From a virus, in the IMG/VR virus record IMGVR_UViG_3300032893_000017, positions 1-64,000 of that record: a stretch of DNA of 64,000 nt. One strand, given 5' to 3'. The translations under genes and the position numbers were made by a program. Of the stretch, positions 2,465 through 30,262 are shown piece by piece. The notes beneath the pieces are model-generated. The model was not told the DNA's origin and did not search any database. It saw only the letters and a program-made list of their open reading frames with translations. The first letter of the stretch is position 1. Each line of letters begins with the position of its first letter.

Positions 2465-3573
2465 ACTCTAGTGACTCCAATTGTTATACTGTTTGTTTTT
2501 GCTTCTTCGTTTGCTAATACTGAAACATTTCCAGTAGGTGTACTTACCTGGAAGTCATAAATATCTCTATGTGAATTCATTGCAACTGTGATTGCTTCAC
2601 TTAATATCCATTGCTTTCCTATCTTTAAGGAATTTGTATATGTCTGAATTGCTGATGATGCTAAGGAAATGTACTGTGCATCGGTTAATTGTCCTGAACT
2701 TAATATGTATAGTTGACCTGTAATATTTATTTGATGTACTGTTGGTGCTGTTACTACCAAGCTTATTCCTGCAGCTCTGTAACCTGGGTAATTTGCAAAA
2801 TCATTTTGATCTCCATTTATTATTTTTTCTATCAATGTTTGCTTGTCTGGAGGAAGTGTTCCTGTTCCATCATCTGCATATATTGTTATCCATCCATAAT
2901 CTGGAAGATTTTCTACCAATGAAACACTTTTTATTCCTTCTACAGAAAGAGCTGCGTATAATACTCCTTTTACTGTGCTTCTCGCTAATGAGTTGATAAA
3001 AAGTAGGAATCTTTGAGCCCTTGCTGCATCTGATTCCTCGTCTGTTCCATTTGTAAATGCAGTAACATTTGAACAAGATTCAACTCCAGCTGGTTGATTT
3101 ATAAAACTACCCTGTCCTACTAGAGTATCTATTGCTCCCATTGAAATATTACCTTGAGTTCCAACTATTGTGCATTGAGTTGCTATAGGTGCTGAGTCGG
3201 TTGCACCATTTAAAATAGAACCTACTGCAATTGTTTCAAACTTTATTCCATTCAATATTATTTGAGTTCCTATTGCTATTGGATAATCTTGTGTTGCTGC
3301 TGTTGATCTAGAGAATACTAAGTATCCAGATGCTTTTATTCCTGGGAGTCTTGCGAAGTTAAAACCAGCATATATGGCTATCGGTATTGCTTTCAGCAAT
3401 CCTTGATAAAAATCATTCTGAGTTTCTGATGACACAAGTGAAACACCTTCCAAAATAGTTGCTAGTCTGCTTCCTGTATTAAAATTATTAAGTGCTGAAT
3501 TATTTGCTACAAGATATCTCTTAAGAGCATCGAATATCTGATCATTAGTCTTAGGTTGATATATTGCTGACAT
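2461..3573 (-). CDS. baseplate J-like protein
   Basis: This 370-residue protein is recognisable as the baseplate J / gp47 family that forms the baseplate wedge of contractile tails. The N-terminus has the usual TGSRLATILEGVS segment (near 32-45). The middle has the GTDEESDAARAQRF signature (about 176-189) followed by RSTVKGVLYAAL, and the C-terminal part is beta-rich. Length fits the family. It lies between the LysM/gp25-like gene and the propeller-bearing baseplate gene, the order expected for a wedge cluster. Confidence 0.93.
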   Translation of the reverse strand: MSAIYQPKTNDQIFDALKRYLVANNSALNNFNTGSRLATILEGVSLVSSETQNDFYQGLLKAIPIAIYAGFNFARLPGIKASGYLVFSRSTAATQDYPIAIGTQIILNGIKFETIAVGSILNGATDSAPIATQCTIVGTQGNISMGAIDTLVGQGSFINQPAGVESCSNVTAFTNGTDEESDAARAQRFLLFINSLARSTVKGVLYAALSVEGIKSVSLVENLPDYGWITIYADDGTGTLPPDKQTLIEKIINGDQNDFANYPGYRAAGISLVVTAPTVHQINITGQLYILSSGQLTDAQYISLASSAIQTYTNSLKIGKQWILSEAITVAMNSHRDIYDFQVSTPTGNVSVLANEEAKTNSITIGVTRV

Positions 3574-3584
3574 TCTTTTCTCCT

Positions 3585-5411
3585 TTATGTTTGTATGCTT
3601 GCATTACTTAATAGATTTCCTACATCAAGCACGTTTTCACTTCCAGAATAAGGTTTATATCTTAAATTGATTTTTATTGTATCTCCTATTTTTGTTACAT
3701 CTTTCTTATTTATGTAGCAAAAATTAGTTCTTGGGTCTAATGATACCTGCTTTGTTACTGCATCTATTAATTTAGACAGAATTACTGCTGATGGAACATT
3801 ACCTATATAAAGATTGATACCCCATTCTGGATGCAGTGGATTAAGTGAATTTGTTTGATATATTATTCTATCGAAGATATTAGCTTCATAGCAATCTTGT
3901 CCATATACCATTCCAAAATCTCCTGTTCCATCTACAACAAATTCTCTATTTGAATCCAAGTCCAAATCACTTCCAAGAACTTGAAGCTGTCTTTCTTGTG
4001 GAGTAGATATTTCTAATCTTTTGGTATAGACTAGATTTTTTGTAAGTGTGGTATAATTGATAACTGTTTGCTGTGGTATCATTATATTCTGACCTACTAT
4101 AGCATCATTTATAAAACTTTCTGTAGTTAATCCATTTGCATCTAGGATTAAATTGTATTGTGAATAGTCTCCATAAAATTTCCTTGTTATCTTGGATAAT
4201 GTATCACCAGACTGGATTGTATAATATACTGAATCTTTATAGACATAACCCCTTTGTACTGTATCAGAAGCAACAAAGTTATTAGGTATATTCTTCTCAA
4301 ACTGTTCTGCTGTTAATACTAAATCTGAAACTGATATTTCTTTCTTCTGTAAGTTATTCACAAATTTATCTATTGCTATTACTAAGGATAAAGCTAAATT
4401 CATTCCAGATATTCCTGCTAGAACATTTATATAATTTTGGTTTGTGATTAAATAGTTTGGATCTTCCTCTCTGTATTTTGTTAATATGCTGTCTATACTC
4501 TCACTAATCTTATCTGAAAATATTACTTTTGTAATATTGTAAGCAATATTAACTAATTGATCTCTTGTATTAAGTGCATTGGTAATTATTTGAGTGTAGT
4601 CTGTTATAGTATTGTCTACCAAACTCTGTACTCCTGCTATCATGTCATTTGCAAAAGATACAACCTGATTCCAGTCATCTGATATTTCTGAAGGCAGACT
4701 GGATAACTGCTGACTTATTGCTATTACATTATAGAATTGATCTCTTGCTGCTGTTAATATGTCACTCAAAGATTCTTTCTTTAATACTCTTCCTAGTCCA
4801 AGAGAATAGATTCCTGAATATTCTCTTATTGTTTTCATTTCTATAGTATAGTTTATTGTCCATGGATCTGCTTTACTTCTTGACATTGTAAAGTTGGTGA
4901 ATATTACTTCGTAATGATTATTATCATCGTAGTCGTGATAGACTATACCTATATTTTCATAAGTTGCTTTTGAACTTCCTATCAAAGCCATCAAAGCATT
5001 TATTTCTGGAAATACTGATTTTAATTCTGAATGATTATCTGTTCCATTTGGATCTCTGAATCTTGAAACTATATATCTTAATTTAAAAAATTCATCTAAA
5101 CCAGATATGCCTGTATTGACTGGAATGTTTTCTGAATTGAATATATTTCCTACATAGTAAGAATATAAAGAACCTGTTAATTTTATTACCTTAATGTCAT
5201 TTCCAAAATCATCTACCCACGCATCGCTCATTGTCTTGGTAACAGTTGCTTTATATCCTTCTTGAATTGTATATTCTTCTGGTGGGAGTAAGAAAAATAA
5301 TTCTGTCAGCCATCCTCCAAGTTGACTTGTTTGAGGATTTCTGCTAAAGAATTCAAATGAAAAAATACCTGTGAAACTGAAAGCATCACTCAAAATATCC
5401 AAAAGATTCAT
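3585..5411 (-). CDS. LysM-containing baseplate wedge protein with gp25/GPW-like C-terminal domain
   Basis: A 608-residue protein that seems to join two wedge components. Residues 396-447 are a LysM domain (YTIQSGDTLSKITRKFYG, then GQNIMIP), as in gp53-type proteins. Residues 482-600 resemble the gp25/GPW family: DLDLDSNREFVVDGTGD, then a helix, then NPLHPEWGINL, close to the HPEYG motif of those proteins. Residues 1-210 are beta-rich and 211-380 helical. In T4-like phages gp53 and gp25 are separate, so this would be a fusion. A near-consensus promoter lies about 20 bases upstream of its start. Confidence 0.8.
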   Translation of the reverse strand: MNLLDILSDAFSFTGIFSFEFFSRNPQTSQLGGWLTELFFLLPPEEYTIQEGYKATVTKTMSDAWVDDFGNDIKVIKLTGSLYSYYVGNIFNSENIPVNTGISGLDEFFKLRYIVSRFRDPNGTDNHSELKSVFPEINALMALIGSSKATYENIGIVYHDYDDNNHYEVIFTNFTMSRSKADPWTINYTIEMKTIREYSGIYSLGLGRVLKKESLSDILTAARDQFYNVIAISQQLSSLPSEISDDWNQVVSFANDMIAGVQSLVDNTITDYTQIITNALNTRDQLVNIAYNITKVIFSDKISESIDSILTKYREEDPNYLITNQNYINVLAGISGMNLALSLVIAIDKFVNNLQKKEISVSDLVLTAEQFEKNIPNNFVASDTVQRGYVYKDSVYYTIQSGDTLSKITRKFYGDYSQYNLILDANGLTTESFINDAIVGQNIMIPQQTVINYTTLTKNLVYTKRLEISTPQERQLQVLGSDLDLDSNREFVVDGTGDFGMVYGQDCYEANIFDRIIYQTNSLNPLHPEWGINLYIGNVPSAVILSKLIDAVTKQVSLDPRTNFCYINKKDVTKIGDTIKINLRYKPYSGSENVLDVGNLLSNASIQT

Positions 5412-5431
5412 TCTTGTTATTCCCCTTACAT

Positions 5432-5460
5432 ATTATATATAAAAAAAGCAATTTTGTAAA
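5432..5460 (-). promoter_or_regulatory. sigma70-type promoter before the distal baseplate genes
   Basis: On the minus strand TTTACA (5460-5455), a 17-base spacer, then a perfect TATAAT (5437-5432). It sits in the short gap between the spike gene and the LysM wedge gene. The same TTTACA-17-TATAAT arrangement occurs before the portal gene (43427-43455), which supports it being real in an AT-rich genome. Confidence 0.65.
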
Positions 5461-5467
5461 TTACTTC

Positions 5468-6400
5468 TTATCCTGTTTTTGCCTTCTGTGATTGTGAAGC
5501 AGATATATCCAATGTCATTGGGGTTGCCGGAGATCCGGATGTTCCTGAACCTGTTGTAACCCCCGTATGAGTATGAGCATTCAGTAAAGCCAAGAAGGTG
5601 CTCAATGCTGTATTTAATTCTGTATAAGTAACAAATGATTTATTGCTTCCATTTACATCTACTTCACCGTTTTTTATAGTTATATAATCTCCATTCTTTG
5701 CAGTCAATTTTATATTTTCTGTTCCTGGTGTGGAATCCATTTTTACAGTTTGACCTGCTTTGTCAATTAATTCTACATATTCCTCACTGTCTTTTGAGTG
5801 CATTATAAATTGCTGATTTTTCTTATCTACAATTGTTACATCTTCCCCTGTTATTGTTATTACCAAATTATTATCAACATCGGTTATTACTTTTTTTCGT
5901 AAACTGCCTTCATACTTTATTTCTAATCTAAGAGTATGATTGACAAAATTGTTTGGAGTCTCCTCTATTCTCTTTTGAGTTTCTATACTTCCATTTGCTC
6001 TCATTATTTGTCTTGTGCCTGAGTAGTGGTAGATTCCCAAATCGTCAACACTCTCAACAATATTATAGAACAATTGTTTGTATTGATCATCATTATCATA
6101 GTTATAAGGAAGAGGTATTGCTGCAACTGGATTCTCATGGTTAGCCTTTACAAAAAGAATTAGAATCATTTGTTTCTGTCTGGGTAAATTAAATAATCCA
6201 TGAGGAAACTTTGTTAAATAGTCCATTGTTCCTCCCCATAAAGGAACTTCGGTAAATTCTCCTGAAGGAAACAAAGTAATGTCGCAGTAGATTCTCAGAT
6301 CTGCTGGATTGTTTTTGCTTCCTATATATACATTATTTACTATTCCAATTCTTGCATCATATAGTTTATCTAAAGCATCTTCATTAGATTCTATATTCAT
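5468..6400 (-). CDS. baseplate spike / assembly protein V-like (cell-puncturing tip)
   Basis: This 310-residue protein has an N-terminal OB-fold-like region (about 12-105, DARIGIVNNVYIG onwards). A repetitive beta-strand stretch rich in short ITI, VTI and IKL segments follows (about 165-255), the pattern of a triple-stranded beta-helix. The C-terminus has AHTHTG near 275-280. That HxH at the tip is characteristic of P2 gpV-type spikes, where the histidines hold a metal ion at the apex. It lies next to the hub gene. The role is membrane piercing at the centre of the baseplate. Confidence 0.85.
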   Translation of the reverse strand: MNIESNEDALDKLYDARIGIVNNVYIGSKNNPADLRIYCDITLFPSGEFTEVPLWGGTMDYLTKFPHGLFNLPRQKQMILILFVKANHENPVAAIPLPYNYDNDDQYKQLFYNIVESVDDLGIYHYSGTRQIMRANGSIETQKRIEETPNNFVNHTLRLEIKYEGSLRKKVITDVDNNLVITITGEDVTIVDKKNQQFIMHSKDSEEYVELIDKAGQTVKMDSTPGTENIKLTAKNGDYITIKNGEVDVNGSNKSFVTYTELNTALSTFLALLNAHTHTGVTTGSGTSGSPATPMTLDISASQSQKAKTG

Positions 6401-6409
6401 AATTTCTCC

Positions 6410-7999
6410 TTATACACTCTCTATAACTCCAAATTCTTTTTTGGATACTCCTCTTTCTACTGTTGCAAGTGTTGTATAATTCTGTCCATATATCCATCTA
6501 TTAGTTACCCCTACAATATAGTAATATCCCTCATGATATGTTTCTTCTATTTCTCCAAAGTCTGTTCTTTCATATTTTAGAACATGACCAATTCTTATTG
6601 TTTCATCTCCTTTAAGAACTATAGATCCTCTAAGGAATCTATCTAAGTTTCTGTACCACATATAGGCTTTATTCTGGAATGCTTGACATACTTGTACCAT
6701 TCCTGCTTGATCTGTTTCTTGTGGAACATTAAAATTGATAGCATTAAGATTAAACTGCATTGGATTGTATCCATATTTTCTTAATGCTATATCATCATAC
6801 AAAGGAGGTATCATTGCTTTACCTTGCAGTGCTGTTACTACTCCACCAGAAGGCATCGCATAATAAGTAGAAGGCTTCATATTCCTTCCCATTCCTAAAT
6901 CTTTTTCTATCCAGTCATCGTCTGTAATAACATGACAAGTAAGTGGATTATCTATTAGATCATTCATAGAAACTAAAGAAGGAATATTATAAGGATCACT
7001 TATAACTTTTGTTGCTGTTGTAGAGGTGTTATCATTGTTCTTCATAGCGTCTGGAACTATTACATTAGAGTCCAGATTTCTATCATCAAAAGGTGTGGGT
7101 CTTAAAACTAAGTATACTTTTCCTTGAGCTAATTGTGCTACTGAGCCACTTGTTAATACATGAGTTGTATCTCCTGTATCAACAAATAATTCATTAAAAG
7201 GAGCATTCAAAAGATGTTTTAAATAATTGTACAGATCGCATTGAGTAGACAACATAGAAAACTGCATAAGAAAATTATCATTATTACAAGTATGAGAAAT
7301 TGCTCCCTTTCCTACCAAAGATACTCCAGTTGGAACTAATTGATCTGTTCCTTCACCTAATATAACTGTATAAGATGTATTTGTGTCTTGCAATGCAACA
7401 AACTTATCTTGAATCTTGCTTCCATCTGCAAATTGAAATGGCTTTACATTAAGACTAGCACTATTTTGATTTATTACACCTATTATCCAAACATTTATTA
7501 TCTTTTCCATTAGTTGAGCTGTAGTAAGGTTCATTAAAGTTCCAAATGAACTTAATCCAGCTAATATTGAATTTTGATAAGTTCTGTTTATATTCAAATT
7601 ATCATCATACCATATTTTGTGGTCTATAAGAATAGCTCCTAAATCTCTTCCAGTAATAACCCAATTTCTAGCAGGTTTTCCATCTTGCCCAATAGATACC
7701 TTTTTTCTCACATCATCTACCATTCCAAGCATTATTTCTTTATTATTGATGTAGATGTCTACAAGTCCTGCTGGTCTGAATATCTCATAAGCTGTTTTAT
7801 CTGGTTTTGGAATATTAAAAAGATATGAAAAGTCTTTTCTGCCTATCAAGGTTATAGTAAATGTTCCCGCTGGTTGATCTATTGTTTTTGTTGTCTCTAC
7901 TGCTAAGATATCTCCTCCAAATTCTGCAGATATTAATTCTATTCTGTCTCCCGAAACTGAAGTATATGTTACATTTATTCTAGGAGATCTAGTTCTCAT
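6410..7999 (-). CDS. baseplate hub protein (gp27 / late-control-D-like)
   Basis: A 529-residue protein with the layout of a contractile-tail hub. The N-terminal beta-barrel region ends in NWVITGRDLGAILIDHKI (about 122-139), the typical place where hub proteins carry a (V/I)xGRDL motif. The C-terminal barrel ends in a short segment about vicinal frames (HVLKYERTDFGEIEETYHEGYYYI). It lies directly before the spike gene, which it would hold in the baseplate, and after the tape measure. Family membership is judged from motif and order only. Confidence 0.8.
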   Translation of the reverse strand: MRTRSPRINVTYTSVSGDRIELISAEFGGDILAVETTKTIDQPAGTFTITLIGRKDFSYLFNIPKPDKTAYEIFRPAGLVDIYINNKEIMLGMVDDVRKKVSIGQDGKPARNWVITGRDLGAILIDHKIWYDDNLNINRTYQNSILAGLSSFGTLMNLTTAQLMEKIINVWIIGVINQNSASLNVKPFQFADGSKIQDKFVALQDTNTSYTVILGEGTDQLVPTGVSLVGKGAISHTCNNDNFLMQFSMLSTQCDLYNYLKHLLNAPFNELFVDTGDTTHVLTSGSVAQLAQGKVYLVLRPTPFDDRNLDSNVIVPDAMKNNDNTSTTATKVISDPYNIPSLVSMNDLIDNPLTCHVITDDDWIEKDLGMGRNMKPSTYYAMPSGGVVTALQGKAMIPPLYDDIALRKYGYNPMQFNLNAINFNVPQETDQAGMVQVCQAFQNKAYMWYRNLDRFLRGSIVLKGDETIRIGHVLKYERTDFGEIEETYHEGYYYIVGVTNRWIYGQNYTTLATVERGVSKKEFGVIESV

Positions 8000-8008
8000 C
8001 TTCTATCC

Positions 8009-9748
8009 TTAATGTGATATCTTGTGTGAAGTAGTAGGCATTGATTTTGAAAGTCCTGTTAGTTTTCCAATCCAGTCTGAGATTCCTTTAATTGTATTTT
8101 CTAGTGCATTTCTGAATTCGTTTACTGCTGCCGCACAAAGTTTATTTGCATCTATAAGAGTATTTGCACTTTCTCTTACATCCTGGAATTGAGTGTAATA
8201 CATTGATTCTCTTTGTGTTTTTAATCTATCACTAATTTCTGCTCCAACGTATCCTTTCGTTCCAGTAACAGGTGCTCCTGTTTTTATATTTTCTGCTTCT
8301 TTTAATATCTGTCTTGGATCTGTAAACTTTTCAAAACCTGGAACAACTCTTTGCATCATCATTGCTGCATTTCTTGTTCCTTTACCCATTAACTGTTCTA
8401 CTGCATCTATTGTCATTTGCTGAGTTTCTAATAAATGATCATTTAATTCGTCTTGTACATCTGATAATCCAGCTCTCATTCCTTTTTTCTGCATTCCTCT
8501 TTGTACTGCTTGGAAGACAAAACTTTCTTTTGATCCACCTTCCATCATCGCAGCTTGTCCAGTTGTCTGCATTGCTGATTGTAGTATTTCTGGACCCATA
8601 GCTTTTAATCTTTCATCTGAAGTTTTCATTAAAGCACCCAGGGATTTATCTAAGTCATCAACTGATCTTTGACTTCCTTGCATAACTGCTTGAGTAAGTG
8701 CTTCTTGCATATCTCTTATAAATTCTTCTGATCTAGCTCCACCCATTCCTACATCTTTTGCTGTCTGCATTGTCTTCATTAAAGTTGATACACCGTTTTG
8801 TCCTTGTCCAAATCTTTGATAGTTTCCAGCCCACTCACCTAATTGTCCAGGTCCAAATCCATAAGCATTTTGTAACTGTGCTAATTGATTAACAATTCCT
8901 TCTGTTTGTTTTCTTCCTCCACCCGTTTGTTTAGCATAGGAACTCATCATCTCTACTTGCTGTGAACCTGTTAATCCATAATAGGCATTCCTTGCATCTA
9001 CAACATCCTGTCCTTTCTGATTCCTCATAAATCCTCTGTAAAAACCTGCTGGACCTGTTGTACTGCCAAATCCCATTTGTTGGATTCCCTGCATTTGTGC
9101 ATTACCTGCTGTTCTGAATGCTTCTGCCCTGGCTGATAGAATACCATAAACTGCACCTATAGTTGCCATTATAATTGCACCAGCAATTCCTGCTTTACCT
9201 AAAGCTCCTCCTCCACCACCTGTTTTTCCTGTACCTGAAACATCTTTCATTTCTTCTCTTAATTTATCCTGTGCAGTTAATCCAGTTCCTCCACCTTGTA
9301 TTTTTGCTCCTGTTATTTTTGAAACAGTTAATTCCGTTGCTGTAATGGTTCTGAATTTTGCTTGTCTGGATTGTCCTCTTATATCTGAAGATGATTCATC
9401 TCCAAAACCTGTTCCACTTTTTTCTTTTCTTCTTTGCTGGAGATCTTCTTTTAAGGATTTACCTTTTTCTTTCATTGCTTGCATTAAAGCAACATCTTCT
9501 CTATTTACAGATTCTAGAACATGAGTAACACCTTCTCCTACTCCTCGTCCTTTTTTAAACTTTTTAGATTCTGTGTTTAGTGTCTTGTAGTATTTTTCTA
9601 CATCTTTTGATGCTTTTCCAAAATCTGTTTTTGAAGACCCAGAAATATTCTTAAAGAAAGTTTTAAAGTTGTCTTTTGCTCGAGCAAGATTCTTTTTGGT
9701 TTCATCAATAATATTAATCTTGAATTTAAATTCATCCATATTAAACAT
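8009..9748 (-). CDS. tape measure protein
   Basis: This 579-residue protein starts with a charged helical region (ETKKNLARAKDNFKTFFKN) typical of tape measure N-termini. One glycine/alanine-rich hydrophobic segment (AGIAGAIIMATIGAVYGILS, about 192-211) could cross a membrane during ejection. The remainder is predicted helical and rich in Q, M and G. It follows the two overlapping tail-assembly chaperone frames, the conserved position of the tape measure. At about 0.15 nm per helical residue it would specify a tail under 90 nm. The start is 8 bases inside the previous gene. Confidence 0.85.
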   Translation of the reverse strand: MFNMDEFKFKINIIDETKKNLARAKDNFKTFFKNISGSSKTDFGKASKDVEKYYKTLNTESKKFKKGRGVGEGVTHVLESVNREDVALMQAMKEKGKSLKEDLQQRRKEKSGTGFGDESSSDIRGQSRQAKFRTITATELTVSKITGAKIQGGGTGLTAQDKLREEMKDVSGTGKTGGGGGALGKAGIAGAIIMATIGAVYGILSARAEAFRTAGNAQMQGIQQMGFGSTTGPAGFYRGFMRNQKGQDVVDARNAYYGLTGSQQVEMMSSYAKQTGGGRKQTEGIVNQLAQLQNAYGFGPGQLGEWAGNYQRFGQGQNGVSTLMKTMQTAKDVGMGGARSEEFIRDMQEALTQAVMQGSQRSVDDLDKSLGALMKTSDERLKAMGPEILQSAMQTTGQAAMMEGGSKESFVFQAVQRGMQKKGMRAGLSDVQDELNDHLLETQQMTIDAVEQLMGKGTRNAAMMMQRVVPGFEKFTDPRQILKEAENIKTGAPVTGTKGYVGAEISDRLKTQRESMYYTQFQDVRESANTLIDANKLCAAAVNEFRNALENTIKGISDWIGKLTGLSKSMPTTSHKISH

Positions 9749-24177: not shown

Positions 24178-24206
24178 CAAAAAAAGCTAGGCAATTTAGC
24201 CTAGCT
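24178..24206 (-). terminator. rho-independent terminator ending the small-gene island
   Basis: On the minus strand AGCTAGGC-TAAATT-GCCTAGCT, a perfect 8-bp stem, is followed directly by a run of six or more T. It lies 24 bases after the stop of the last island gene and upstream of the capsid promoter, so it separates two transcription units. Confidence 0.92.
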
Positions 24207-25783: not shown

Positions 25784-25830
25784 AAAGATTCAATTAAAGG
25801 CTCTATGTTTCAAGAGCCTAAAATTTAATC
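25784..25830 (-). repeat. intercistronic stem-loop element, copy 1
   Basis: Directly after the stop codon of the 123-residue gene, the minus strand has AGGCTCT and AGAGCCT (7-bp stem) followed by TTTAATTGAATCTTT. The last 15 bases are identical in copies 2 and 3, while the stem sequence differs but stays complementary in each copy. The outer AAGATT/AATCTT bases can pair as well. The T run is too short for a good terminator. Confidence 0.75.
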
Positions 25831-26202
25831 TTAAATTATTTCTCCAGCTTCAATTTCATTCTCTGTAAGATCACTTTCTTTGATCTTTCTTTGTAACCAA
25901 TATTTGAATTCTAAAGCAACTTCCTCTGATACAGCTCCAATATGCCAATCATAAGATTTCTGATTTCTAAACTCTTCGACAGAAGGATAACCTCCATGAT
26001 ATAATTTAGTTTCTTTATAATCATATAAGGTTACAACATGACCTTTTTCAGATTCCAGTATCCATTTTGTACTTACTTTATATCCATCTGATACAGGTAA
26101 ACAACTTCCTAAAATTTTTGTCAAAATTGAATAAGAATTTTTATAATTTGTTTGGAAACTTGTTCCACAAGCATCTGCTTTTAAATTCACTTTAAATTCC
26201 AT
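25831..26202 (-). CDS. hypothetical protein
   Basis: A 123-residue protein. A beta-rich first half (SILTKILGSCLPVSDGYK, then HVVTLYDYKETKLYHGGYPS) and a helical C-terminus (EVALEFKYWLQRKIKESDL). It ends in an acidic tail and is flanked on both sides by the intercistronic hairpin family. No family is recognised. Confidence 0.7.
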   Translation of the reverse strand: MEFKVNLKADACGTSFQTNYKNSYSILTKILGSCLPVSDGYKVSTKWILESEKGHVVTLYDYKETKLYHGGYPSVEEFRNQKSYDWHIGAVSEEVALEFKYWLQRKIKESDLTENEIEAGEII

Positions 26203-26242: not shown

Positions 26243-26289
26243 AAAGATTCAATTAAAGCCTTCAGTTGTTTGAAGGCTGAAATTCAATC
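26243..26289 (-). repeat. intercistronic stem-loop element, copy 2
   Basis: Stem AGCCTTC/GAAGGCT (7 bp, 8-base loop), followed by the same 15-base TTTAATTGAATCTTT tail as copies 1 and 3. It lies between the stop of the 71-residue gene and the next ribosome site. Confidence 0.75.
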
Positions 26290-26291
26290 TT

Positions 26292-27499: not shown

Positions 27500-27826
27500 T
27501 TAATTATATAAAGTTTTTATCCAGCATCTTTTGTTTGTATCTCCCCAATCATAAAGTTCTTCCATTAAATAATTAAACTCTTCTACTGCTTCTCTATTTT
27601 CTTTGTAATAATCTGGATTACAGTTTTCTTTCAGTTCTTCAAATTCAATAATTAAATTATCAATCTTATCTTCATCATTTAATGGTTTTATTTTCTTCAA
27701 TCCTGTAATAACACAATCACAAAGTTTTGAAGTTTCTTCAAAAGTAATTTCATCTTCATCTTTGTCTTTTGTTAATTCCCAAACTCCATGAATGTCTAAA
27801 GTAGCTTTCCAATTTAAATTTTTCAT
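27500..27826 (-). CDS. hypothetical acidic protein downstream of a hammerhead ribozyme
   Basis: A 108-residue protein, acidic and helical (DEDEITFEETSKLCDCVI, EDKIDNLIIEFEELKEN). Its ribosome site AAAGGAG lies directly after the 3' end of the type II hammerhead, so ribozyme cleavage or folding could affect its translation. No family is recognised. Confidence 0.72.
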   Translation of the reverse strand: MKNLNWKATLDIHGVWELTKDKDEDEITFEETSKLCDCVITGLKKIKPLNDEDKIDNLIIEFEELKENCNPDYYKENREAVEEFNYLMEELYDWGDTNKRCWIKTLYN

Positions 27827-27846
27827 TTGTTTTCTCCTTTGATCTA

Positions 27847-27901
27847 TCTCATCAGTTGCAAGTGATCAATCTTGCAAGACTCCCAGTTAAGGGAGTTTCG
27901 A
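27847..27901 (-). ncRNA. hammerhead ribozyme, type II (stem II open)
   Basis: The minus strand reads GAAA (27899-27896), stem III CUCCC/GGGAG with a six-base loop and the A-U closing pair, then the cleavage triplet GUC (cut between 27878 and 27877). A perfect 7-bp stem I UUGCAAG/CUUGCAA with an 8-base loop follows, then CUGAUGA (27855-27849). All conserved core residues are present. Open stem II is weak: only two adjacent pairs (GA/UC). Six bases of the stem I loop can also pair with GAUCAA at 27844-27839, overlapping the next ribosome site. Confidence 0.8.
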
Positions 27902-27903
27902 AT

Positions 27904-28056
27904 TTATTTAACTTTCTTTTCCAATATCTTTTTCATATCAGGACTTATTACTGCATCTGGATCAAGTAAATCTTTTATGATCTGCTGTTTTTCAGTTTCA
28001 TTGTTTGCACTGTGTAATAATACTGCAACTTCAAGGTCATTGTAATAATATTTCAT
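27904..28056 (-). CDS. 50-residue microprotein upstream of the type II hammerhead
   Basis: The frame starts MKYYYNDLEVAVLLHSANNE with AAGGAGG well spaced upstream, and its TAA lies three bases before the ribozyme. It is helical, with a DLLDPDAVISPDMKK segment. No family is recognised. Confidence 0.7.
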   Translation of the reverse strand: MKYYYNDLEVAVLLHSANNETEKQQIIKDLLDPDAVISPDMKKILEKKVK

Positions 28057-28057
28057 A

Positions 28058-28234
28058 CTATTCCTCCTTATATATTTCTGATAAATATTTTATTTCTGCA
28101 CAATAACCACAATGTGCATCATAATATTTATCATTTGGAGCAAGGTATGGTTTATATCTTTTATCAATTTTTTCTTCTGGCTTTGCTCCAACTACTTTCC
28201 TATAATTTTTTAAAAATTCTTTACAAGTATTCAT
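28058..28234 (-). CDS. 58-residue microprotein
   Basis: The frame starts MNTCKEFLKNYRKVVG, with AAAGGAGG upstream. A CGYC pair near residue 42-45 plus an early cysteine may bind metal. Its TAG is next to the start of the 50-residue gene. No family is recognised. Confidence 0.7.
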   Translation of the reverse strand: MNTCKEFLKNYRKVVGAKPEEKIDKRYKPYLAPNDKYYDAHCGYCAEIKYLSEIYKEE

Positions 28235-28449
28235 AAGGCTCCTCCTTTATACTTTACATGGTGCATTATTGAAAAACTTGAATATTTTAATATTTCATCA
28301 AATTTTTCTTTTTCTAAAACATAACAGGGATTTACTTTATAACCATTTCTTCTTATTTCTGAAATAAAATTACTTTTTGTTTTACAGTCTCGTTCTAAAA
28401 ATAATTTCTCTTTAGTTTTTTTATCTGTAACCATTGCTTTGAAAATCAT
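28231..28449 (-). CDS. small hypothetical protein
   Basis: Seventy-two residues: a beta/alpha pattern starting MIFKAMVTDKKTKEKLFLER, then RRNGYKVNPCYVLEKEKFDE, as in small DUF proteins that modify or mimic nucleic-acid binders. It overlaps the next gene by 4 bases and has a TAGGAGG site just after hairpin copy 3. Confidence 0.7.
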   Translation of the reverse strand: MIFKAMVTDKKTKEKLFLERDCKTKSNFISEIRRNGYKVNPCYVLEKEKFDEILKYSSFSIMHHVKYKGGAL

Positions 28450-28463
28450 AAAATCCTCCTATA

Positions 28464-28512
28464 AAAGATTCAATTAAATCCACTCAATTAAGAGTGGACA
28501 AAGTTTAATCTT
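28464..28512 (-). repeat. intercistronic stem-loop element, copy 3
   Basis: Stem TCCACTC/GAGTGGA (7 bp, 6-base loop) with the shared TTTAATTGAATCTTT tail. The outer AAAGATT/AATCTTT arms extend the pairing into the stop codon of the 63-residue gene upstream. Confidence 0.75.
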
Positions 28513-28696
28513 TTATAAACTTAATTATTTCCATTCTGATGTTCTCATGCATTTCATGGCTTGTTGTTTCTATTGCTGTATTCTCTTTTTCATTCCACAC
28601 TACAAATGTTCCTTTTTCTCTGTCATGCTTTAGAACCTTGAATGTCTCCATTGGATCGCTTATAAAATAAAATCTAGCTCCAACTAAATCTTCCAT
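28505..28696 (-). CDS. small hypothetical protein
   Basis: Sixty-three residues, mostly beta (VGARFYFISDPMETFKVL, TFVVWNEKENTAIE) with a C-terminal helix. The start overlaps the previous stop by one base (TAATG-type). It reads like a small SH3-type barrel. No family is recognised. Confidence 0.7.
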   Translation of the reverse strand: MEDLVGARFYFISDPMETFKVLKHDREKGTFVVWNEKENTAIETTSHEMHENIRMEIIKFIKD

Positions 28697-28887
28697 TATT
28701 CAACTCCTTTTGACTGATAAATTAAAATACCTTTATTGATACATTCTTGTAAATCTTCTTCTTTTTCACTTTTATATGCTATTCCACCAATTATATGTAT
28801 CTCATACATTAGCTTCATTACTTTATGTTTACTAATTGATATTTTATTACCTGAAGGTACATGCAAATAAATTCCTGTTTTTATCAT
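28696..28887 (-). CDS. small hypothetical protein downstream of the structured RNA element
   Basis: I place the start at ATG 28887 (MIKTGIYLHVPSGNKIS) because AAGGAGGAG is well spaced there. A longer frame to 29124 runs through a structured intergenic RNA and the upstream gene, so I reject it. The protein has 63 residues in an alpha/beta pattern. No family is recognised. Confidence 0.72.
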   Translation of the reverse strand: MIKTGIYLHVPSGNKISISKHKVMKLMYEIHIIGGIAYKSEKEEDLQECINKGILIYQSKGVE

Positions 28888-28898
28888 AATCTCCTCCT

Positions 28899-28964
28899 TA
28901 TTTATTGCTGACTTTGAACAGCTTGTTTTCACAAGTGCATTACAGGGATTGCTCCCTGTCATCT
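28899..28964 (-). ncRNA. structured intergenic RNA, possibly a diverged hammerhead
   Basis: Between a TAG stop and an AAGGAGG site the minus strand folds into three consecutive hairpins: ACAGGGA-GCAA-UCCCUGU, CUUGU-GAAA-ACAAG and GCUG-(8)-CAGC. The 3' end has AGTCAGCAATAAATA, a 15-base exact repeat of the cleavage-site and stem I region of the hammerhead at 29193-29244. However CUGAUGA is replaced by CAGAUGA and the second core GAAA is missing, so self-cleavage is doubtful. Confidence 0.5.
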
Positions 28965-28966
28965 GC

Positions 28967-29158
28967 CTAGGCATATTTAAGATCATTAAGTAACCACATA
29001 GCTTCTGATTTTTTTTCAAAATAATCTTTATACTCATCATATTCTTCTTTTTTATCATAAGAACTTGCTGGTTTTTCAAAAGCTTGTATTTCTTGTAATT
29101 CACCCTTAACTTTTCCATTGTCAAAAAATTTAGATATAACCAAAAAATATGTTTTCAT
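28967..29158 (-). CDS. small hypothetical protein downstream of the type I hammerhead
   Basis: I choose ATG 29158 (MKTYFLVISKFFDNGKVKG) with AAGGAG six bases upstream, over the longer reading to 29188, which would begin inside the ribozyme flank. It has 63 residues: a beta start and an acidic helix (YDEYKDYFEKKSEAMWLL). No family is recognised. Confidence 0.72.
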   Translation of the reverse strand: MKTYFLVISKFFDNGKVKGELQEIQAFEKPASSYDKKEEYDEYKDYFEKKSEAMWLLNDLKYA

Positions 29159-29192
29159 ATTTCTCTCCTTGATCATTTCTGATCTCATATTT

Positions 29193-29244
29193 ATTGCTGA
29201 CTCCCTTTCGGGAGTTTCGTCTATTTAAGACTCATCAGAGCAAC
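29193..29244 (-). ncRNA. hammerhead ribozyme, type I (stem I open)
   Basis: Minus strand, 5' to 3': stem I GUUGCU, CUGAUGA (29238-29232), stem II GUCU-UAAAU-AGAC, GAAA (29218-29215), stem III CUCCC-GAAA-GGGAG closed by an A-U pair, cleavage triplet GUC, then AGCAAU closing stem I. Stems II and III are perfect, and stem I has five Watson-Crick pairs plus one G-U. Cleavage is predicted between 29199 and 29198. It begins in the stop codon of the 318-residue gene and ends before the next ribosome site. Confidence 0.93.
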
Positions 29245-30200
29245 TATTTTTCTAAAATCTTTATTATTTCTTTTGCTTGTTCAATATTTACTTTCAATCC
29301 ATTTATAGATATTTCATAATCTAATTTATCTTCTTCAACAGGCTTTATTAAATCAACTTTTATTTTTTGGTCTTTAATAGTAATACTATATTCGTCTATC
29401 TCATAACCTGATCTTTCATGTCTTCTTCCTCTATAATAAGGATTTAATTTATATTCTTTTTTGTGTTCTACTGTAATATTTAAAATCTCTTCAAGCTTTG
29501 TTTTTGTAGAATCAATATTTTTTAAGTTATCTACTTCTTCTTTTTTCTTTTCTTTTTCTTTCGCAATTTTATCATCTACCAATTTTTTGAACGAAGAAAT
29601 TAAAGACTCTAACTTCGTAAATCTTTTTGTTTTATAATCTGATATAGAATCATTGAAACTGTATCCTGCAAAATGTGAATCCATTGACCATTTACTATTC
29701 GAAACATAATGCTCTGATACATATATTTTATTATTCTTGTATTCAACAATTACTCTATAACCTCTTAAAAAGTTATCTTCATTAAAACTTTCAACTGAAG
29801 TTTTAATTCCACTTTCCTGTAAATTATCGATTAATTTTTTTACATTATGTATCCAACATTTATCATAAGCTTTTTTTGCTTTTTCTAGTTTTACTTTTCT
29901 ATCATTTTCTTTTTTAGCTTCTAATAATGATTTATATTCTTCATACAGTACAGTTAGATCCAATTCAATTCCTAATTCTTTTAATGATTTTTCAAAAGAC
30001 TCATCAAGGAATTTTGAATTTATAAAATTACTTTTTTCTGAATTCCAATCCATAAAAAATTTAATTTCTTTTACTGCATTATTAATCTTAACACTAATAA
30101 GTGCATTGTCTGTAACATATTCCTCATTTATTCTTTTAGAAACAATAAATTCAAATTCGTTCACTTTAGAAGGTTTTAAAATTTGTTTTGTAGTATCCAT
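29244..30200 (-). CDS. hypothetical protein, first gene of the small-gene island
   Basis: A 318-residue charged protein, the largest in the island. It is helical in the middle, with coiled-coil segments (about 80-120 and 205-240), and has alternating beta stretches such as YRVIVEYKNNKIYVSEHY. A tyrosine/arginine-rich YYRGRRHERSGYEID loop lies near 260. It is read from the promoter near 30265, and its stop codon touches the type I hammerhead. I do not recognise it. Confidence 0.75.
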   Translation of the reverse strand: MDTTKQILKPSKVNEFEFIVSKRINEEYVTDNALISVKINNAVKEIKFFMDWNSEKSNFINSKFLDESFEKSLKELGIELDLTVLYEEYKSLLEAKKENDRKVKLEKAKKAYDKCWIHNVKKLIDNLQESGIKTSVESFNEDNFLRGYRVIVEYKNNKIYVSEHYVSNSKWSMDSHFAGYSFNDSISDYKTKRFTKLESLISSFKKLVDDKIAKEKEKKKEEVDNLKNIDSTKTKLEEILNITVEHKKEYKLNPYYRGRRHERSGYEIDEYSITIKDQKIKVDLIKPVEEDKLDYEISINGLKVNIEQAKEIIKILEK

Positions 30201-30248: not shown

Positions 30249-30262
30249 CCCTTTGTAATAAT

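Follow-up and report, generated by a model that had tools for sequence, protein, structure and literature searches.

In 2011 Perreault et al. described clusters of hammerhead ribozymes belonging to native polycistronic RNAs of phages and prophages, several of which were active in vitro and, for one set, in E. coli; 4 of 18 hammerheads that fitted the consensus had no activity (PMC3088659). The ribozyme neighbourhoods described by Roth and Weinberg, as cited in PMC10085705, show an enrichment of hammerheads and twisters in the vicinity of phage genes and of one another, for a reason stated there as unknown; the associations were strongest for Mu-like phages. HDV-like theta ribozymes mature the 3' ends of tRNAs in gut phages (PMC10879173). 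An intercistronic phage hammerhead is in itself an element of an already known kind.

The DNA considered here, referred to as the window, is a stretch of 64,000 nucleotides, positions 1 to 64,000 of the IMG/VR virus record IMGVR_UViG_3300032893_000017, which has 97,318 bases. The record comes from a tailed phage whose terminase and capsid are distantly similar to those of SPO1-type phages and of Leptospira phage LE1 (24-30% identity) and whose minus strand carries nearly all genes. Its type I hammerhead (minus strand, 29193-29244) lies in an island of small genes, mostly without match, that is flanked by an SNF2-type helicase gene on one side and by the genes for the head on the other. With the clusters of Perreault et al. 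(2011) it shares the core, the three-stem fold and the clustered, intercistronic location in a phage operon; those clusters consist of hammerheads only, whereas here three ribozyme classes lie on one short transcript with the stop codon fused to the ribozyme edge (PMC3088659). The associations described by Roth and Weinberg were most pronounced in Mu-like phages, in contrast to the SPO1-like terminase and capsid of this phage (PMC10085705). The theta ribozymes are likewise small self-cleaving RNAs serving phage RNA processing, a role that is predicted in the present case, but they have another fold and act at tRNA 3' ends, not on protein-coding cistrons (PMC10879173).

Read on the minus strand from 29244 to 29193, the sequence GUUGCU-CUGAUGA-GUCU UAAAU AGAC-GAA-ACUCCC GAAA GGGAGU-C^AGCAAU is a complete type I hammerhead. 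The elements CUGAUGA, GAAA and GUC are all present in order with every core nucleotide intact, as the original prediction had it. Stem I is open and has 6 bp, stem II has 4 bp, and stem III has 6 bp counting A15.1-U16.1, in agreement with the 5-bp stem plus A-U closure first proposed; loops II and III have 5 and 4 nt. The hammerhead fold is identical to both the minimum free energy and the centroid fold (-17.4 kcal/mol, z = -3.65), and 0 of 200 shuffles were as good. Cleavage is predicted between C29199 and A29198, the site named originally. Stem I starts on the G of the UAG with which a 318-aa open reading frame ends (29244-30200, minus strand), so that the ribozyme does begin within that stop codon, overlapping it by one base. 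With stem I open, no convincing tertiary contact between loops I and II was seen by eye. Hammerheads of minimal form may cleave slowly at the Mg2+ levels found in cells.

A covariance-model search with Rfam, the check suggested with the original prediction, did return the hammerhead family RF00163, at 28.4 bits (E = 0.0025, 20 kb against all families), a score below the gathering cut-off of 34, which is a curation threshold and not a structural feature. A covariance model built from 41 hammerheads of other phages with the window left out (model R1) gave a score of 61.1 bits, with a rough E value of about 4e-18, and this hammerhead was its sole strong match in the entire record. A second phage hammerhead, on a contig designated G117, scored 28.5 bits with RF00163 and 60.1 bits with R1; given these two pairs of scores, the Rfam cut-off looks strict for phage members of the family. 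Chance produced 4 relaxed type I hammerheads in 300 Markov-shuffled 64-kb sequences, and hammerheads with stems as long as those observed in 0 of 1,500 shuffled windows. Matches to RAGATH-1 hammerhead and freshwater-2 at the same sites were rejected, being far below their cut-offs and overlapping better matches.

Two further ribozymes, absent from the original prediction, occupy neighbouring junctions on the same strand. The first is a probable twister-P5 (RF02684) at 28907-28967, which starts on the final G of the upstream gene's UAG. It matches the model over its full length (1-58) with 37.5 bits, marginally under the cut-off of 37.6, and E values of 1e-4 to 3e-4 (1.2e-7 for the whole record); its variant GCAGAUGA is also found in a G117 copy that is over the cut-off (42.5 bits). 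By analogy with twisters already known, the cut is predicted between U28942 and A28941, at U^AA of loop L1. The second is a type II hammerhead (RF02276) at 27838-27903, with 42.6 bits against a cut-off of 37, which abuts the UAA stop codon (27906-27904) of the gene upstream and has a predicted cut between C27878 and U27877. Its loop I, UUGAUC (27869-27864), may form a 6-bp pseudoknot with GAUCAA (27844-27839) just before the Shine-Dalgarno sequence. All three ribozymes are found within 1.4 kb (27838-29244), each between the stop codon and the Shine-Dalgarno sequence of co-directional genes, and the stop codon ends at ribozyme position +1, +1 and 0 in the type I hammerhead, the twister and the type II hammerhead, respectively. 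In the rest of the record outside the window there were no further ribozymes (all Rfam families, E<=1).

The genes separated by these ribozymes are all on the minus strand. The 318-aa frame upstream of the type I hammerhead had no Pfam match and no PHROG match. Between this hammerhead and the twister lies a 63-aa gene (28967-29158), for which the most likely start is the ATG at 29158, and not the first ATG of the frame at 29188; the predicted cut would then lie 40 nt ahead of the start codon. Its Shine-Dalgarno sequence AAGGAGAG (29170-29163) is downstream of 29198, which supports the earlier claim that cleavage leaves the next ribosome site intact. A leader hairpin predicted by folding, GAUCA-GAAA-UGAUC (29171-29184), abuts it in the post-cut 5' leader. 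A second 63-aa gene (28696-28887), with the Shine-Dalgarno sequence AGGAGGAG (28898-28891), follows the twister. The type II hammerhead is preceded by a 50-aa gene (27904-28056) and followed by a 108-aa gene (27500-27826) of phrog_6318, a family with no assigned function.

Upstream of the 318-aa gene, the segment 30262-30290 of the minus strand is the probable promoter of the island. It contains a 25-bp sequence with TGTATAATA, of which an exact second copy is found at 90461-90485 of the record and nowhere else in it. This repeated 25-mer is better evidence for a promoter than a sigma-70 scan, in which the number of sites was no higher than in shuffles. At the end of the island there is a hairpin followed by a T run resembling an intrinsic terminator (24185-24206, minus strand). 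Three other junctions on this strand (28464-28512, 26243-26291 and 25784-25832) carry a long, imperfect intercistronic hairpin, D1, each copy of which begins at a stop codon. The outer stem AAGAUU/AAUCUU is conserved in all three, and the inner stem has changed on both sides and is still paired. RNase III cuts the early polycistronic mRNA of T7-type phages between cistrons and leaves hairpin ends, much like the effect proposed here for the ribozymes, but there a host protein does the cutting. The D1 hairpins could be RNase III sites like those of T7, or possibly an undescribed element. They were rejected as a known or widespread element, since none of 11 pattern matches elsewhere had a real inner stem.

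A search of IMG/VR for homologues of the 318-aa gene found none, and one for the helicase gave one weak match. The terminase has one relative (55% identity) on a 13-kb fragment, in which neither a hammerhead (model R1, E<=10) nor a twister was found. No relatives of the island were found.

Hammerheads in other phages were surveyed with a pattern describing the core and a GUC/GAC stem II, which favours one stem II type and places no constraint on stems I and III. It matched at least 120 phage stretches; a control version in which the GAAA core had been broken matched 2. Stems I and III form at 119 of 130 unselected pattern sites listed, compared with 23 of 1,300 with random flanks. In an alignment of 41 phage hammerheads, 98.2% of pair cells are paired and covariation is 0.748 (0.146 when shuffled); these 41 rows were picked for pairing, and the comparison of 119/130 with 23/1,300 is the cleaner control.

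Among the matches listed there are 87 type I hammerheads on other IMG/VR phage contigs, deduplicated by flank identity only. The stop codon of a frame of at least 40 aa ends within -2 to +10 nt of the 5' edge in 45 of these 87 (52%), compared with 4.3% at random same-strand positions, and exactly at 0 or +1 in 17 (20%), compared with 0.7%; these counts ignore phage lineage and rest on simple open reading frames as gene calls. In 15 of the 87 the first UGA of CUGAUGA serves as the stop, and in 21 the stop overlaps stem I. The UGA class has a partly mechanical origin, since any frame that reaches the core is stopped there; without this class, 30 of the 87 keep a stop at the edge. Among the type III hammerheads listed, none of 25 has a stop codon at the edge (Fisher p = 3e-7 against type I). 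These lie about 18-35 nt past the stop and may have a role of their own.

Similar arrays were found in other phages. A contig designated G059 carries, within 3500-9500, eight consecutive type I hammerheads in 3.7 kb, all at stop codons with an offset of 0, +1 or +6. In most units the UAA stop forms the 3' half of stem I (GATTAA ahead of CTGATGA), and about 15-35 nt past each ribozyme there is an ATG in an AT-rich context without a Shine-Dalgarno sequence. The original prediction had regarded intercistronic use in an island of small genes as the unusual part; this does not hold, since over half of the 87 type I hammerheads listed are similarly placed and one other phage has eight of them in a row. 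The G117 contig, from a GC-richer phage, carries five twister-P5 ribozymes over the cut-off along with a single type I hammerhead, all within 10 kb; five of these six have their stop at offset -1, 0 or +10. On the G067 contig (28000-38000), five type II matches (26-33 bits, below the cut-off) occur at successive gene junctions, and three weak type I-like matches (17-20 bits) are interleaved with them in 3.5 kb. These variant type I-like elements have a CUGACGA core and a long stem II. The window is not unique in mixing ribozyme classes, though such a mixture is uncommon. Co-occurrence with twister-P5 was discarded as a rule, as that ribozyme exceeded its cut-off in just one other hammerhead-bearing record searched.

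In the genomes of named phages there are related elements. The cultured Streptomyces phages R4 (NC_019414), a laboratory phage, and TinaBelcher (MK392365) have Hammerhead_II matches of 51.6 and 60 bits in the gap that separates a stop codon from the start of the following gene; in the local 1.8 kb compared, the stop is 14-16 nt upstream, and not fused to the ribozyme as it is here. The annotated CDS gp60.1 of R4 overlaps its Hammerhead_II (896-979) almost wholly and is probably not a gene. In AP013540 (Votkovvirus S28C10) a hammerhead-like element, GUUGUA CUGAUGA, is present at 907-974, with a weak first stem II pair and a long stem III, and the CDS deposited for the gene upstream extends into this element.

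The parsimonious explanation for three co-oriented ribozymes at successive junctions is a protein-free segmentation and 3'-end formation of a polycistronic phage mRNA, which we consider fairly probable. From the sequence, structure and position of the ribozymes and their recurrence in other phages, we infer cleavage, end protection and any timing by ribosomes as follows. The island would be one transcription unit, from the promoter near 30,260 to the terminator near 24,190, with the three ribozymes within it. Each would fold at the end of its cistron during RNA synthesis and cut once. The upstream message would then end in a GC-rich hairpin directly followed by a 2',3'-cyclic phosphate: ...ACUCCC GAAA GGGAGU C>p for the type I hammerhead, ...ACUCCC UUAACU GGGAGU C>p for the type II hammerhead, and ...ACAGGGA GCAA UCCCUGU>p for the twister. 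The next message would start at a 5'-OH and keep its Shine-Dalgarno sequence intact behind a short leader. Folds of the predicted products agree: each upstream message ends in a hairpin of 6-7 bp that leaves no more than one base unpaired, and the Shine-Dalgarno sequence of each downstream message is intact.

Host exonucleases, and endonucleases dependent on a 5'-monophosphate, would be expected to act poorly on both new ends, so that the ribozymes may work in 3'-end formation and segmentation. As the stop codon is within the ribozyme or touches it, a ribosome terminating there would sit over stem I and some of the core, and the cut may also be timed by translation of the gene upstream. Such resistance to decay and such timing would follow from general RNA biology. 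The upstream product of a type III hammerhead has no hairpin end. That the hairpin-leaving classes (types I and II and twister-P5) are placed at stop codons and type III elsewhere points to 3'-end formation and segmentation. The contrast with type III could, on the other hand, reflect different phage lineages instead of product ends. Short gaps would in any case be favoured in compact phage genomes, irrespective of function. This counts against the processing explanation, as do the result of the search by eye for a loop contact, the possible slowness of minimal hammerheads and the 4 of 18 inactive hammerheads in PMC3088659.

The ribozymes might instead lower expression, the cut exposing ends and destabilizing one or both messages, either as a fixed attenuator or as a switch responsive to translation or to a ligand. 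Regulated cleavage has been raised for phage hammerheads (PMC3088659), and a stop codon that falls within stem I or within the core, as in 36 of the 87 listed, would couple folding to ribosome passage. Hairpin, cyclic-phosphate and 5'-OH ends are, however, expected from established RNA biology to protect a message, not to destabilize it, and there is no aptamer-like domain in the type I hammerhead, whose loops II and III are so short. We regard this explanation as unlikely.

Distinctly unlikely in our estimation are mobile or selfish cassettes, each a ribozyme with a small gene, that would recombine from one phage gene junction to another and do little for the phage itself. On their 3' sides, the type I hammerhead (29202-29188) and the twister (28913-28899) share 15 identical bases, AGTCAGCAATAAATA, which play different structural roles in the two and suggest recombination between junctions. 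Near-identical hammerheads are also repeated inside single phages (L107 and L108), and ribozymes have been linked to selfish elements (PMC3088659). Random insertion, however, would be expected to give neither the registration with stop codons nor the contrast between types I and III; the three ribozymes have no common terminal repeat or endonuclease, and they are of three different classes at equivalent sites. That the type I hammerhead is an inactive relic or a chance resemblance is highly improbable: its Rfam score under the curated cut-off and the lack of close relatives for a conservation test would allow it, but the intact core, the score with the held-out model, the failure of the strict motif to appear in shuffled windows and the two further ribozyme-family matches at adjacent junctions argue against it.

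Docking at the stop codon appears to be little described. Our literature search, which did not include the main twister and RAGATH RNA studies, found no published description of this registration, and no priority is claimed. Beyond segmentation of the mRNA in this island, we offer as a tentative and somewhat doubtful generalization that stop-codon-docked ribozymes may be a general phage device, in which interchangeable classes (type I, type II and twister-P5) fused to stop codons would give each cistron its own protected 3' end, with an upstream product ending in a hairpin and cleavage timed by the ribosome. The survey provides a sharp positional rule, that the edge of a type I hammerhead coincides with a stop codon, and a contrast, that of type III does not. 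This rule makes the role of phage ribozymes directly testable, for example in the cultured Streptomyces phage R4.
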